Source: a bacterium CG_4_9_14_3_um_filter_65_15
Lineage (GTDB): Bacteria; Krumholzibacteriota; Krumholzibacteriia; LZORAL124-64-63
Assembly: GCA_002790835.1 (NCBI GenBank)
Contig: PFVX01000017.1
Coordinates: forward strand, 1 to 53,367
Length of the DNA: 53,367 nucleotides
Direction: 5' to 3'
How positions within the stretch are numbered: position 1 is the stretch's first letter; every line of letters begins with the position of its first letter. The position numbers and the translations under genes were made by a program. Positions 47,517 to 53,367 of the stretch are shown here, piece after piece. The notes under the pieces are model-generated. The model was not told the DNA's origin and did not search any database. It saw only the letters and a list, made by a program, of their open reading frames with translations.

Positions 47517-48035
47517 ATGAAGCGCTTCTCCCTGATCATGCTGGCCCTGCTGGCAGCCCTGAGCCTGGCCTCGACTTCCGTCCTGGCCGGTGACGGCCAC
47601 TGTACCAAGGTCGCCGGCGACAAGTCGGCTTGCGCCGCTTCCGCCGGCGACAAAGCGGCATGCGCCGCATCCTGCAAAGACAAGGCGGCTTGCTCCGCCT
47701 CTTCCGCCTGCAAGGACAAGGAATCCTGCTCCGCGGCCGACCAGGCCGCCTGTAAGACCGCCATGGCCGGCATGGACAAATGCTGCGCCGCCGCCCTCAA
47801 GGACGGCAAGGGTTGCGGTGGCAAGGATGCCGCCGCCCTGAAGGCCGATTTCGGCAAGAAGGTCGATGAGGCCAAGGTCGGCATGGCCGTCAAGGCCGGC
47901 ATGGGCAAGTGCTGCGCCACCGCCGCCGTCGACGGCAAGGGTTGCTGCGGCAAGGACGCCGCCGCCACCAAGGCCGCCTTCGACAAGAAGGTGACCTCGG
48001 CTTCCAAGGAAGTGGCTTCCGCCGACGCCAAGTAG
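47517..48035 (+). CDS. Exported Cys/Ala/Lys-rich repeat protein
   Basis: A 172-residue protein with a signal peptide (residues 1-24, LASTSVLA). The mature part has 15 Cys. The first half repeats a short unit of the type AGDKAACAAS or CKDKAACSAS. The second half contains two copies of a longer unit: GMDKCCAAALKDGKGCGGKD and GMGKCCATAAVDGKGCCGKD, each followed by an A/K-rich helix ending near KK. No known family is recognised. Cys density and CC pairs suggest metal binding or disulfide-linked assembly in the envelope. AGGAGG lies 12 bases before ATG, with AAAGGAAA closer. A strong terminator follows. Confidence 0.85.
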   Translation: MKRFSLIMLALLAALSLASTSVLAGDGHCTKVAGDKSACAASAGDKAACAASCKDKAACSASSACKDKESCSAADQAACKTAMAGMDKCCAAALKDGKGCGGKDAAALKADFGKKVDEAKVGMAVKAGMGKCCATAAVDGKGCCGKDAAATKAAFDKKVTSASKEVASADAK

Positions 48036-50024: not shown

Positions 50025-50089
50025 TGCCCCCTGCTGCTATTGAAATCGTATAAAAACCCCAGATTATAAGATTAATTTTGATGAATCAC

Positions 50090-50118
50090 TTGATGTTTCC
50101 CACAAAAACGAGTATAAT
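50090..50118 (+). promoter_or_regulatory. Sigma-70-type promoter of the first A/B unit
   Basis: TTGATG (50090-50095) and a perfect TATAAT (50113-50118) are separated by 17 bases, in an AT-rich gap after the CxxC protein. It would give a leader of about 180 bases to the first A-type gene. Confidence 0.7.
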
Positions 50119-50158
50119 CCATCCTGATTGAGATCCCGATGGGATTCGTCAATCGCCA

Positions 50159-50284
50159 TGGTTGGGTTCATTGGGGGATATACCCAACCACTTCTGGATC
50201 AACAAGAAAAGTGCAATAGTGGCGGAGAATTCCCTCTCTGCCCATCAGTCGGTTGCTGTGGCCCCACCACACAAATCCGCAACC
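50159..50284 (+). promoter_or_regulatory. Structured 5' leader of the first A/B unit
   Basis: Two stem-loops are visible between promoter and start. The first is a 9-bp perfect stem (50159-50167 with 50182-50190). The second is a two-part stem: GGTTGC 50251-50256 with GCAACC 50279-50284, continued inward by TGTGG with CCACA. The second ends at the AGAGGA ribosome-site candidate. Translational control or RNA stability is inferred; no known riboswitch class is recognised. Confidence 0.35.
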
Positions 50285-50305
50285 AGAGGAAAGACGGGGG
50301 CGAAC

Positions 50306-50971
50306 ATGACCAAATGGAAAATGACATCTGTGGTGCTCACGGGGCTGCTGGCCGGCCTTTTGGCCTTGCCGGTGGTTGCCCAGACCGCCCAGATCGACTA
50401 TGTCGGATTCGGTTTCGAGACCGGAGGAATCCTCCCCAGTAACCCGGGGGACGAACTGGTGATCGAAGCGGTCGCCGGCAATGCGGACACGAAATTCGCG
50501 GTTGATCTCGGTGTGACCGAGTTGACCTTCCACGTCAGCGGTCTGGTCAGCGCGGGCCAGGTGGTCAGTGGTGGCGTCACCAGCATCAACTACACCGGGG
50601 GCATGCTGGAGATTTATCGGGACGGGGCCAAGAACGCCGATTGGGGAATCAATCCCCCCAACCCTTCGGCGCCTTCAACCTTCACCGACGGGACCCTGTT
50701 CTTCCAGGGTGAGTTCACCAATTTCACCCTGTACTTCGCCTCCGGCGGCTACGGTTCCTTCGTGGGCGACCTCAACGGTCTCGGCGGGGACATGATCGAC
50801 GGCAGCTGCAGCAATTGCGTCTACACCTGGTCCGGTGCGTTCAGTCCCGAGTCGGGCGCCCAGATTCCTACCGGTTACAATCTTCAGATCGACGGCGTGT
50901 TTCAGATCGATTCCACCGTCGACGATGAAGTGACCAGCTGGGGTTCCGTGAAGGCTTTGTTCAATGACTGA
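50306..50971 (+). CDS. Exported A-type protein of the duplicated cassette (copy 1)
   Basis: A 221-residue protein with a signal peptide (1-25, ending LPVVAQ). The mature N-terminus, IDYVGFGFETGGILPS, is shared with copy 2. The centre holds NYTGGMLEIYRDG, NADWG and STFTDGTLFF. A CxxC motif (CSNCVYTW) follows, then YNLQIDGVFQIDS and the terminal tag SWGSVKALFND. It looks all-beta. No known family is recognised. Its structured leader and promoter lie upstream, and the B-type gene follows 48 bases on. Copy 2 (51908-52567) is similar over its whole length, including the CxxC. Function is unknown; an exported surface protein is likely. Confidence 0.85.
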   Translation: MTKWKMTSVVLTGLLAGLLALPVVAQTAQIDYVGFGFETGGILPSNPGDELVIEAVAGNADTKFAVDLGVTELTFHVSGLVSAGQVVSGGVTSINYTGGMLEIYRDGAKNADWGINPPNPSAPSTFTDGTLFFQGEFTNFTLYFASGGYGSFVGDLNGLGGDMIDGSCSNCVYTWSGAFSPESGAQIPTGYNLQIDGVFQIDSTVDDEVTSWGSVKALFND

Positions 50972-51019
50972 CAACCGGTTGGGCGCCTCGTTGCGATGCG
51001 CCCGGGAAGGGATAGACTC

Positions 51020-51637
51020 ATGAAGAACTTGTTGATGATCCTGCTGGTTGTCTCGGTCGCGGCGATGTCCGTGTCCGCGGGTGCCCAGCAACTGTTCGAC
51101 TTCAATGGCCAGGCCCTTTTGCCCGCCAGTGTGGGTGGTAGCTTGACCATGTACAGCGAGGTGTTCGACGCCTCGCCCGCCGTGACGCCGATTCCCCTGG
51201 ACTTCGCCAACTACCAGTACACCCTGGTGGTCCAAGGCCTGACCCTGGACGTCGATGGTTTCACGCAGGCTTACAGCGGCGGCACCATCACCCTGTACGA
51301 GGACGCCGGCACGGTGGCCGACTTCGGCAGTCCGGCGACGTTTACCGATGGTACGGCCATCCTGATCGGGACCTTCCCGACCCTGAGCCGGACGGTTTTC
51401 CCCGGCGGGATCGGTTCGGTTGCCGGAACGGTAGACTGGACCGGCGGCACGCACTTTGACGACATCGCGCCGGAAGACCAGCCGAACTGGACGTTCCTGA
51501 GCGGCACCCACAACGGTGTCGACCAGGCCGAGCCCGGTTACGACGAGATGTGGGATGGCAAGGTCGAACCCAAGGAGCCGATCGTGGCCGACACGGCCTC
51601 TTCGTTCGGCTCGGTCAAGGCTTTGTTCCGCGACTGA
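51020..51637 (+). CDS. Exported B-type protein of the duplicated cassette (copy 1)
   Basis: A 205-residue protein with a signal peptide (1-22, ending SVSAGA) and a mature start QQLFDFNGQALLP. The centre, AYSGGTITLYEDAG, VADFG and ATFTDGTAILIGTF, matches the A-type pattern. TPIPLDFANYQYTLVVQG is shared with copy 2. EPGYDEMWDGKVEPKEPIV leads to the terminal tag SFGSVKALFRD. There is no Cys pair. GGAAGGGA precedes ATG 51020. It follows the A-type gene in one transcript and ends before a strong terminator. A and B are diverged relatives, so an interacting pair or heteropolymer is possible. Confidence 0.85.
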   Translation: MKNLLMILLVVSVAAMSVSAGAQQLFDFNGQALLPASVGGSLTMYSEVFDASPAVTPIPLDFANYQYTLVVQGLTLDVDGFTQAYSGGTITLYEDAGTVADFGSPATFTDGTAILIGTFPTLSRTVFPGGIGSVAGTVDWTGGTHFDDIAPEDQPNWTFLSGTHNGVDQAEPGYDEMWDGKVEPKEPIVADTASSFGSVKALFRD

Positions 51638-51658
51638 ACAATCTGCACGGATGCAACG

Positions 51659-51692
51659 GAGAGGGGTTCGAAACAGGAACCCCTCTCTTTTT
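51659..51692 (+). terminator. Rho-independent terminator of the first A/B unit
   Basis: A perfect 11-bp stem (51659-51669 with 51677-51687) with a 7-base loop, then five T (51688-51692). It separates the two duplicated units. Confidence 0.92.
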
Positions 51693-51765
51693 GGACCCTT
51701 CACCATGTTTCGTCGGATATTCTGGGTCATTGTCCTGATTATTTGGGAATTATTCTTAAATGATG

Positions 51766-51794
51766 TTGATTATCGTCGGGTATGATGCTAATCT
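51766..51794 (+). promoter_or_regulatory. Candidate promoter of the second A/B unit
   Basis: TTGATT (51766-51771) and TAATCT (51789-51794) are 17 bases apart. A TGC just before the second box resembles an extended -10 element. It is in the AT-rich gap after the terminator. Confidence 0.5.
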
Positions 51795-51907
51795 GGAAAG
51801 GAATCTCGCCTGAAAAGACCTCACGGTCCCTGCAACTGTCGCCCGTGTCAACGAAGCGCGGGCCGGGGGACGATAATACTGGGATTGGAAGTTCCGGGGG
51901 TTTGACC

Positions 51908-52567
51908 ATGTGGAAATCTGTTACTGTTCGTCTTCTGGCCATCGGATTGGTGTTCTGTGCCGCACCCGTTTTGGGTCAGGTCTACACCGTTGACTACTAC
52001 GGGTTCGGCTGGGAAACCGGTGGCATCTTGCCCAGCGTTATGGGCGATGAGTTGGTGATCACCTGTTCCGCCGATAACGTGGACCCGGCCTTCGGGGTGG
52101 ACCTGGGCACCGCAGAACTGACCCTCCACATCCATGACCTGATCAGCGCGGGTCAGGTGGACATGGGCGGCTATTATGCCATCAATTTCACCGGCGGCAT
52201 GATGGACGTCTATGAGGACCAAGTGATGAATGCGGATTGGGGCACGAATCCGCCCAACGGGGTTTCGCCGAGCACGTTCGCCGACGGTTCCCTGTTTTTC
52301 AGCGGCCAGTTTACCAGCTTCACCATGTACTTCGACGGCTCCGGGTCCAGCGGTTCCTTCAGTGGTACCCTTGACGGTGTGGGTGGCTCCATCATCGACC
52401 AGATGTGCACCAGCTGTGTGTACACCTGGGGAGGGGCCTTTACCATGGGGGCCAGCGCACAGATTCCCGTGGGCTATGACCTGCAGATTGACGGCGTGTT
52501 CGAGATCGATTCCGCCGTGGACAACGAGCCGACGAGCTGGGGTTCGGTCAAGGCGCTTTTTCACTAG
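51908..52567 (+). CDS. Exported A-type protein of the duplicated cassette (copy 2)
   Basis: A 219-residue protein with a signal peptide (1-23, AAPVLG). YYGFGWETGGILPS, NFTGGMMDVYEDQV, NADWGTNPPNG, STFADGSLFFSGQF, CTSCVYTWGGAF and YDLQIDGVFEIDSAVDNE align with copy 1 throughout. It ends SWGSVKALFH. A Gly/Ser-rich insert (DGSGSSGSFSG) differs from copy 1. GGGGG lies 8-10 bases before ATG 51908. It has its own candidate promoter and is followed 36 bases on by the B-type copy 2. Divergence is large enough that the duplication is old or under selection; I did not compute an identity. Confidence 0.85.
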   Translation: MWKSVTVRLLAIGLVFCAAPVLGQVYTVDYYGFGWETGGILPSVMGDELVITCSADNVDPAFGVDLGTAELTLHIHDLISAGQVDMGGYYAINFTGGMMDVYEDQVMNADWGTNPPNGVSPSTFADGSLFFSGQFTSFTMYFDGSGSSGSFSGTLDGVGGSIIDQMCTSCVYTWGGAFTMGASAQIPVGYDLQIDGVFEIDSAVDNEPTSWGSVKALFH

Positions 52568-52603
52568 ACCAGTGAGGACATACTGGCATCCGGAGGTTGC
52601 ATC

Positions 52604-53224
52604 ATGAGGAAATTGCTTACGGGAACACTGATGGCTGGGGTGCTTGTCGCCCTGCCCCTGGCGGCAGGGGCCCAGCAGTTATTCGACTTTACCGGCCAGG
52701 CTCTGATTTCCAATTACGTGGGTGGATCGGCTGGCATGTTCGGCGAAGTTTTCGATCCCGCGCCCGCCACGACTCCCATCCCGCTGGATTTTGCCCACAA
52801 CCAGTACACCGTGGTGGTCCTTGCCACCATCGCGGGCATCAGCCCGTTTTCGCGGTCCTTCTCGGGCGGCACCATCACCATTTACGAGGATGCGGGAACC
52901 GCGGCCGACTACACGAATCCGGCCACGTTTTCCGACGGCACGGCCATCCTGTTGGGAAATTTGAAAAATTTCAGCCAGTTCCTGCCCCCTGCCGGACCCG
53001 GTTCGGTGAGCGGGTTAGTGGATTGGACCGGGGGATCTCGCCTGGACGATATTGCGCCCGGCGATCAGAGCGACTGGGCCTTCCTGAGCGGATCCAGCCC
53101 CGACAGCGGGCTTCTGGAACCCGGCTATGACGAAGTCTGGGACGGCAAGGTTGAGCCCCAGGAACCGATCGTGGCCGACGAAGCCTCGGCTTTCGGTTCG
53201 GTCAAGGCCCTGTTCCGCAACTGA
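52604..53224 (+). CDS. Exported B-type protein of the duplicated cassette (copy 2)
   Basis: A 206-residue protein with a signal peptide (1-22, LPLAAGA) and mature start QQLFDFTGQALIS. TPIPLDFAHNQYTVVV, SFSGGTITIYEDAGTAADY, ATFSDGTAILLGN and VDWTGGSRLDDIAPGDQSDW match copy 1 closely. EPGYDEVWDGKVEPQEPIVA leads to the tag AFGSVKALFRN. GGAGG precedes the ATG by 7 bases. It is the last gene of the window and is followed by a hairpin. The best conserved parts between copies are the mature N-terminus and the last 35 residues. Confidence 0.85.
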   Translation: MRKLLTGTLMAGVLVALPLAAGAQQLFDFTGQALISNYVGGSAGMFGEVFDPAPATTPIPLDFAHNQYTVVVLATIAGISPFSRSFSGGTITIYEDAGTAADYTNPATFSDGTAILLGNLKNFSQFLPPAGPGSVSGLVDWTGGSRLDDIAPGDQSDWAFLSGSSPDSGLLEPGYDEVWDGKVEPQEPIVADEASAFGSVKALFRN

Positions 53225-53249
53225 CCGGTTTTTGCTTTCTTTGGATGCC

Positions 53250-53274
53250 AGGGTCCCGGCTTTGCCGGGACCCT
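53250..53274 (+). terminator. Hairpin after the second A/B unit
   Basis: A perfect 11-bp stem (53250-53260 with 53264-53274) with a TTT loop, 25 bases after the last stop. It shares the core GGTCCCGGC/GCCGGGACC with the terminator at 48059. The T-run after it is weak. The remaining bases to 53367 show nothing. Confidence 0.7.
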
Positions 53275-53367
53275 CTCGTGTTTGGCTATGTTGCCGCGTA
53301 GAACACCGCACTTGCCGGGTCATCCAGGCAATTAACCGACTTCGCCAGGGCCTGCTGTCGTTTGGCG

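Follow-up and report, generated by a model that had tools for sequence, protein, structure and literature searches.

A 17-residue C-terminal tag, very probably a sorting signal, links a duplicated gene pair to dozens of unrelated exported proteins in Krumholzibacteriota

What is the function of two adjacent gene pairs for exported proteins at the end of a Krumholzibacteriota contig, and do they form a system of their own? The contig (PFVX01000017.1 of assembly GCA_002790835.1, from the bacterium CG_4_9_14_3_um_filter_65_15) has 53,367 nucleotides (nt) and is here called the window, and each of the two units consists of an A gene followed by a B gene. A sequence-only reading of this DNA had proposed the units as an undescribed system; the pair itself proved to be real, but its interest rests on a feature which that reading had missed, a C-terminal tag common to unrelated exported proteins. 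The overall explanation that we favor, and consider probable, is that A and B are secreted beta-proteins carrying a 17-residue surface-sorting tag linked to the type IX secretion system (T9SS). The four genes and their tags are listed below, with model confidence given as the predicted local distance difference test (pLDDT).

50306-50971, + strand: A1, exported protein of 221 amino acids (aa), eight predicted beta strands (fold as modeled for its paralogue A2), C-terminus tagged
50918-50968, + strand: C-terminal tag of A1, VDDEVTSWGSVKALFND
51020-51637, + strand: B1, exported protein of 205 aa, paralogue of A and distant floc_PepA relative, C-terminus tagged
51584-51634, + strand: C-terminal tag of B1, VADTASSFGSVKALFRD
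51908-52567, + strand: A2, exported protein of 219 aa, AlphaFold2 model with eight beta strands and, at low confidence, a short helix at the C-terminus
52517-52564, + strand: C-terminal tag of A2, VDNEPTSWGSVKALFH, helix at residues 212-218 with pLDDT below 50
52604-53224, + strand: B2, exported protein of 206 aa, AlphaFold2 model with eight beta strands and a low-confidence C-terminal helix
53171-53221, + strand: C-terminal tag of B2, VADEASAFGSVKALFRN, helix at residues 193-204 with pLDDT below 50 from residue 196

The C-terminal tag and its carriers

All four proteins terminate in [WF]-G-x-V-K-A-L-F-x, as part of a tag that is 17 residues long, ends the protein, and follows the consensus V-x-x-E-x-x-[ST]-[WF]-G-[AS]-[VI]-K-[SA]-L-[FY]-R-COOH (positions are numbered from the core G). 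With one tagged protein per cluster of unrelated bodies (n = 52), information content stays at background up to position -10 and jumps at -9. Conservation includes positions that were outside the search pattern, namely V(-8) in 36/52 clusters, E(-5) in 35/52, S/T(-2) in 43/52, and W/F(-1) in 49/52; the G, K, L, and aromatic positions are nearly invariant, and the distance to the C-terminus is exact. The tag contains no transmembrane stretch, and no basic cluster lies behind the motif. It matched nothing in NCBIfam or Pfam, and literature searches, in which Krumholzibacteria papers were covered only sparsely, yielded no description of it.

Pattern searches of the window's genome, rather than its gene set, gave 17 matches to the core DNA pattern, 15 of which end no more than two codons before a stop codon on unrelated open reading frames (ORFs) for exported proteins. 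Across 80 genomes of the phylum, which are draft or metagenome assemblies, a strict pattern including the stop codon returned 530 matches (summed from the table) in 65 genomes, compared to 2 for the reversed control. Under a strict signal-peptide test, which was our own rule rather than SignalP and was applied to a sample from 125 collected tags, 94 of 108 complete tagged ORFs were positive, versus 6 of 34 untagged ORFs of the window. When the last 22 residues were removed, 116 bodies fell into 52 unrelated clusters, the two largest with 19 and 16 members. Through the tag, the A-B locus is linked with exported proteins of dozens of unrelated kinds.

The strict pattern gave the impression that family f3 and genus g4 are without the tag, which was overturned when their homologues were read and variant endings were found. 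In f3 the tag lacks the final R (..TW.xVKALY-stop), with A and B homologues ending in ..TWTRVKGLY and ..STWGAVKALY, and a search for the L[FY]-stop variant gave 28, 46, 41, and 18 matches in four f3 genomes versus 1 control match. In genus g4 the endings are ..SSWTNVKSLF or ..LFD/N/E before the stop, and in genome G034 (family f6) the tag reads ..SSWGAVKSMYK-stop. Judged by these sequences, the tag probably extends across the phylum while its last residues drift, and we infer that such drift would be expected of a signal that co-evolves with its reader. Similar ends may occur in related phyla of the FCB group, a lead rather than evidence.

On homologous bodies, the tag changes places with known sorting signals. 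At the A-B loci of two genomes, G017 and G024, the A homologue (743/750 aa) has a T9SS C-terminal domain (CTD) at its end, and the B protein beside it retains the tag or a decayed version (..STWGAIKALIK and ..TSWGEIKDLSGEK). Most members of the largest tagged family (A5, in 46 genomes) end in the tag, and seven long members, at loci L222, L224, L227, L228, L230, L231, and L232 have a T9SS-type CTD without the tag. Among the other cargo are a choice-of-anchor J protein scoring over the cut-off (L075), a protein resembling ScyF, a PEP-CTERM family, under the cut-off (L035), and a weak resemblance, also under the cut-off, to the exosortase-dependent XDD4 family (L144); PepA relatives elsewhere bear PEP-CTERM. 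Because the tag replaces known sorting signals on homologous bodies, and because its cargo overlaps PEP-CTERM and anchor families, the simplest reading of the sequences is that the tag itself is a sorting signal, which we think very probable. At three further loci (L220, L223, and L225, with ORFs of 531, 443-485, and 446 aa), members of the tagged GxYxD family are fused behind other domains, and the ends (..CPVISTK, ..CGVIPGK) are neither the tag nor a T9SS CTD.

The A-B pair

The two units proposed by the sequence-only reading stand as described: four + strand genes in A-B, A-B order, each product with a typical Sec signal peptide at its N-terminus (4/4). The gaps are 48 nt between A1 and B1, 36 nt between A2 and B2, and 270 nt between B1 and A2, and identity is 60% between A1 and A2 and 60% between B1 and B2. 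Three candidate expression signals accompany the genes.

50090-50118, + strand: sigma70-like match TTGATG-17-TATAAT (10/12 matches), about 190 nt 5' of A1
51655-51697, + strand: terminator-like hairpin 3' of B1 (also placed at 51658-51693), 12-bp stem, -23.0 kcal/mol, z -4.0, followed by a T-run
53244-53284, + strand: terminator-like hairpin 3' of B2 (also placed at 53250-53274), 11-bp stem, -25.2 kcal/mol, z -5.0

A hairpin downstream of each unit was thus borne out, whereas separate promoters were so only in part: the scan found a match 5' of A1 and no sigma70-like match 5' of A2, and the 2 matches in the region, against 1.1 expected from shuffled sequences, are not significant. The sole Rfam match at the locus was a weak one to the terminator hairpin after B1, with no riboswitch.

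A and B had been taken for two different types of partner. They are instead ancient paralogues, with about 30% identity and E values down to 4e-16, and by this comparison an old tandem duplication gave rise to the A-B pair, and a later one copied the pair whole. In the AlphaFold2 models of A2 and B2 (mean pLDDT, 77.5 and 81.8), each protein has eight beta strands and a C-terminal helix that is unpacked from the body. A fold search of the Protein Data Bank with both models returned nothing at E < 0.001; avidin-like and AbyU-like barrels were weak fold matches only and were not used. The view that the proteins belong to no known family holds for Pfam, where no family was found for A or B and the only match, phage_tail_N, was dismissed as noise. 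It does not hold fully for NCBIfam, in which all 14 B proteins match floc_PepA (NF033554) at E ≤ 0.1 (best, 7e-6, under the cut-off), with nothing further for A or B. Residues 24-145 of B align with positions 60-174 of that family; the scores of 23.4 bits (B2) and 20.7 bits (B1) are far from the curated cut-off of 80 bits, and unlike in floc_PepA, there is no PEP-CTERM and two paralogues stand in tandem. By profile score, B is a distant relative of floc_PepA and not a member.

The pair is conserved beyond this locus. The window's genome has two further A-B pairs in the same order on contigs C4 and C61, for four pairs in total, and the family is present in 34/80 genomes of the phylum; relatives from named genomes include metagenome-assembled genomes of Candidatus Krumholzibacteriia. 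In every fetched relative with enough contig, B lies 35-82 nt 3' of A on the same strand. Had A and B regularly been found apart, the idea of a pair would have fallen; in the 80 genomes, 95 of 101 family matches have a same-strand neighbor from the family no more than 2 kb away, and the pair survives. The 6 single matches include a spurious cupredoxin-like one (G043), one that adjoins a weak B (G040:C233), and two that are partial. The A and B trees are congruent (r = 0.81; none of 2,000 label shuffles as good), in part through their common species history, and L024 shows a single local B-B exchange; as had been supposed, the pair was duplicated as a unit.

What the pair does can be approached through PepA, which on over-expression in Aquincola attaches exopolysaccharide to flocculated cells (PMC9850573). 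Given this activity and the distant kinship of B with PepA, A and B could be surface or matrix structural proteins acting together, a role on which our confidence is evenly divided, flocculation being known from Aquincola and not here.

Two other features of the window were recorded. At 47517-48035 (+ strand) lies a gene for a small exported protein whose sequence abounds in Cys/Lys/Ala repeats (CKDKAACSASSACKDKESCS...) and which may bind metal. At the right end of the window, at least 58 nt (53298-53355) recur without a mismatch at the start of this genome's contig C89 (L237 16-73, - strand), and a repeat at the contig ends probably broke the assembly there.

Sorting machinery and rival explanations

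The phylum is well equipped with T9SS components. SprA was found in 80/80 phylum genomes versus 0/14 control genomes, and PorV-family proteins (9 matches in the window's genome and up to 17 per genome), PorU-like proteins, and the type A CTD (TIGR04183; 57 matches in the window's genome) were likewise found in 80/80. Tagged proteins combine two features asked of functional T9SS cargo, a signal peptide and a genome with T9SS. The tagged protein would be exported by Sec and its body would fold in the periplasm, after which the free peptide at the C-terminus, which is probably a short helix, would be read by T9SS or a branch of it (one of its many PorV-type shuttles) and the protein placed on the outer surface. 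We lean slightly towards such a T9SS link.

The best candidate to cut or transfer the tag would be a second, divergent PorU-like C25 protease. In 10/10 inspected loci (families f1, f5, and f6), between one and three tagged genes are followed directly, in the same orientation, by its ORF (1378-1536 aa). These loci were picked for having both genes on one contig, so that this count gives no frequency; at one of them, L237, the relaxed pattern missed the tag, which was read by eye. Like PorU (NF033707) and PorU2 (NF052324), the protease has a C25 domain (PF01364, E 1e-42 to 1e-53), conserved His (QGH.N) and Cys (GMGCH) motifs, kept in 8/8 aligned sequences, and a C-terminal T9SS-like domain. Unlike them, it scores far under both cut-offs (138, 150, and 154 bits against 420 for PorU; 65-70 bits against 450 for PorU2), and it is an extra gene besides the better-scoring PorU, a separate gene that adjoins a PorV-family gene in many genomes. 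That the second protease processes the tag is a tentative and rather doubtful proposal. At these loci (L237-L246; for example, contig C89 of genome G000, L237 1638-6149, + strand), the order is one or more tagged GxYxD-type secreted proteins and then the protease. Genes for a SpoIID-like lipoprotein and an AnmK-like protein come next in several, and at L239, L241, L242, L244, and L245 the tagged genes are often preceded by one for a small exported protein that contains dockerin-like repeats (..LSDLVLF.., ..NLSDFALFGQ..).

Several points weigh against this T9SS-linked explanation. No known T9SS CTD is as short as the tag, which is predicted to be helical, with no beta domain. SprA, PorU, PorV, and the type A CTD are universal in the phylum, so a phylogenetic profile cannot link the tag to them; the second C25 protease, whose loci were selected as described, has a T9SS-like CTD of its own and may be mere T9SS cargo. 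About six large A5 members carry neither the tag nor a T9SS CTD, and the tag search covered Krumholzibacteriota genomes only.

Known signals put the tag in perspective. T9SS CTDs are 70-100 residues long and beta-structured (PMC11285876), the shortest described, from Prevotella intermedia, having 43-55 residues in three strands (PMC11969387); the targeting signal of Porphyromonas gingivalis HBP35 lies in the last 22 residues (PMC11285876), and in Flavobacterium johnsoniae shuttles differ by CTD type (PMC12618676). The tag resembles the type A CTD in its C-terminal position, its occurrence on varied Sec-exported proteins of the same genomes, its exchange with that CTD on homologous bodies, and its ending in two hydrophobic residues plus R/K (…SLYR in the tag, …MILLR in the CTD). 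It differs in having 17 residues rather than 43-100, in its predicted (low-confidence) helix rather than a beta-sheet, and in a near-invariant sequence, CTDs being conserved more in structure; none of 20 tagged proteins scanned with NCBIfam matched TIGR04183. Since it is this short, probably helical, and unmatched by TIGR04183, the tag is best classed by sequence as a kind of C-terminal sorting tag and not as a T9SS CTD. PEP-CTERM, which consists of a motif, a transmembrane helix, and a basic cluster (PMC1569441), is the signal of exosortase (TIGR02595/PF09721) and is likewise short and C-terminal, with many copies per genome carried by signal-peptide proteins of diverse kinds and with partly overlapping cargo families (PepA, ScyF). 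The PEP-CTERM profile matched no tagged protein among those scanned against NCBIfam. The MYXO-CTERM/myxosortase and GlyGly-CTERM/rhombosortase tags, too, are C-terminal, serve in sorting, and occur lineage-wide on dozens of exported proteins that are unrelated to each other (PMC11980579, PMC3237569), but they are tripartite with a transmembrane helix, whereas the present tag ends no more than 8 residues past the core G, with no spanning helix.

A handler of the exosortase type, or another intramembrane sortase in the style of PEP-CTERM, GlyGly-CTERM, or MYXO-CTERM, would fit the likeness of B and some other cargo to PEP-CTERM families, and the exosortase EpsH (PF09721) does occur in the phylum outside family f1, in some genomes that bear the tag. 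The tag lacks the transmembrane stretch and the basic cluster, and EpsH is missing from 38/38 genomes of the tag-rich family, the window's genome included, which largely refutes the idea for EpsH; exosortase was ruled out as the tag handler on this ground, and a sortase of this kind is highly improbable. The tag might need no sorting machine if it were a self-sufficient amphipathic membrane-binding helix. Its hydrophobic residues at -1, +2, +5, and +6 fit one helix face with K(+3) and R(+7), and both AlphaFold2 models finish in the short unpacked helix, but lipid-binding helices tolerate substitution, and the tag is conserved far beyond the needs of membrane binding at E(-5), at the near-invariant G, K, L, and aromatic positions, and in its exact C-terminal distance. 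Its exchange with T9SS CTDs also indicates a recognized signal, and we regard the membrane helix as unlikely.

It is slightly less likely again that A and B are a new two-component surface system on which the tag is incidental: the adjacency in 95/101 matches, the fixed order, the largely congruent trees, and the four pairs in one genome would speak for such a system, yet A and B, as paralogues, share one fold, and a tag found on dozens of unrelated proteins is not specific to them. For the pair itself, such a system may be compatible with the tag. PDZ-type proteases recognize hydrophobic residues at free C-termini, and the tag could in principle hand exported proteins to such a protease for breakdown or quality control in the periplasm; 17 conserved residues are rarely needed for PDZ recognition, and a degradation mark is implausible on so many secreted families with homologues that bear a secretion signal instead, leaving this as improbable as an intramembrane sortase. 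Least credible is common descent of the shared ends from one domain: the two large clusters of related bodies (19 and 16 members) would suit it, but the 52 clusters are unrelated and nothing is conserved upstream of -11, and homology was ruled out as the cause by the body clustering and the conservation profile.

What the tag may mean for Krumholzibacteriota

Other C-terminal sorting tags (LPXTG, PEP-CTERM, GlyGly-CTERM, MYXO-CTERM, and the T9SS CTDs) have time and again opened the way to unknown secretion or anchoring machines. To our knowledge, there is no genetics in the uncultured Krumholzibacteriota. The tag, which has neither a membrane helix nor a folded domain, marks dozens of proteins, so that a simple pattern predicts the exported proteome and gives function-free "hypothetical proteins" a common property. 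One speculative extension, which we hold to be possible but doubtful, is that the phylum uses a second minimal code beside the beta-domain signal, a 17-residue helix read by a dedicated T9SS branch (a PorV-type shuttle and the second PorU-like C25 protease, as a transpeptidase) and placed mostly on small surface or matrix proteins, A and B among them. The small size of the tag could also make it useful for fusions in surface display. Should T9SS prove to be its reader, it would show the minimum size of a T9SS signal, a question left open by the work on HBP35 and on the short CTDs of P. intermedia.

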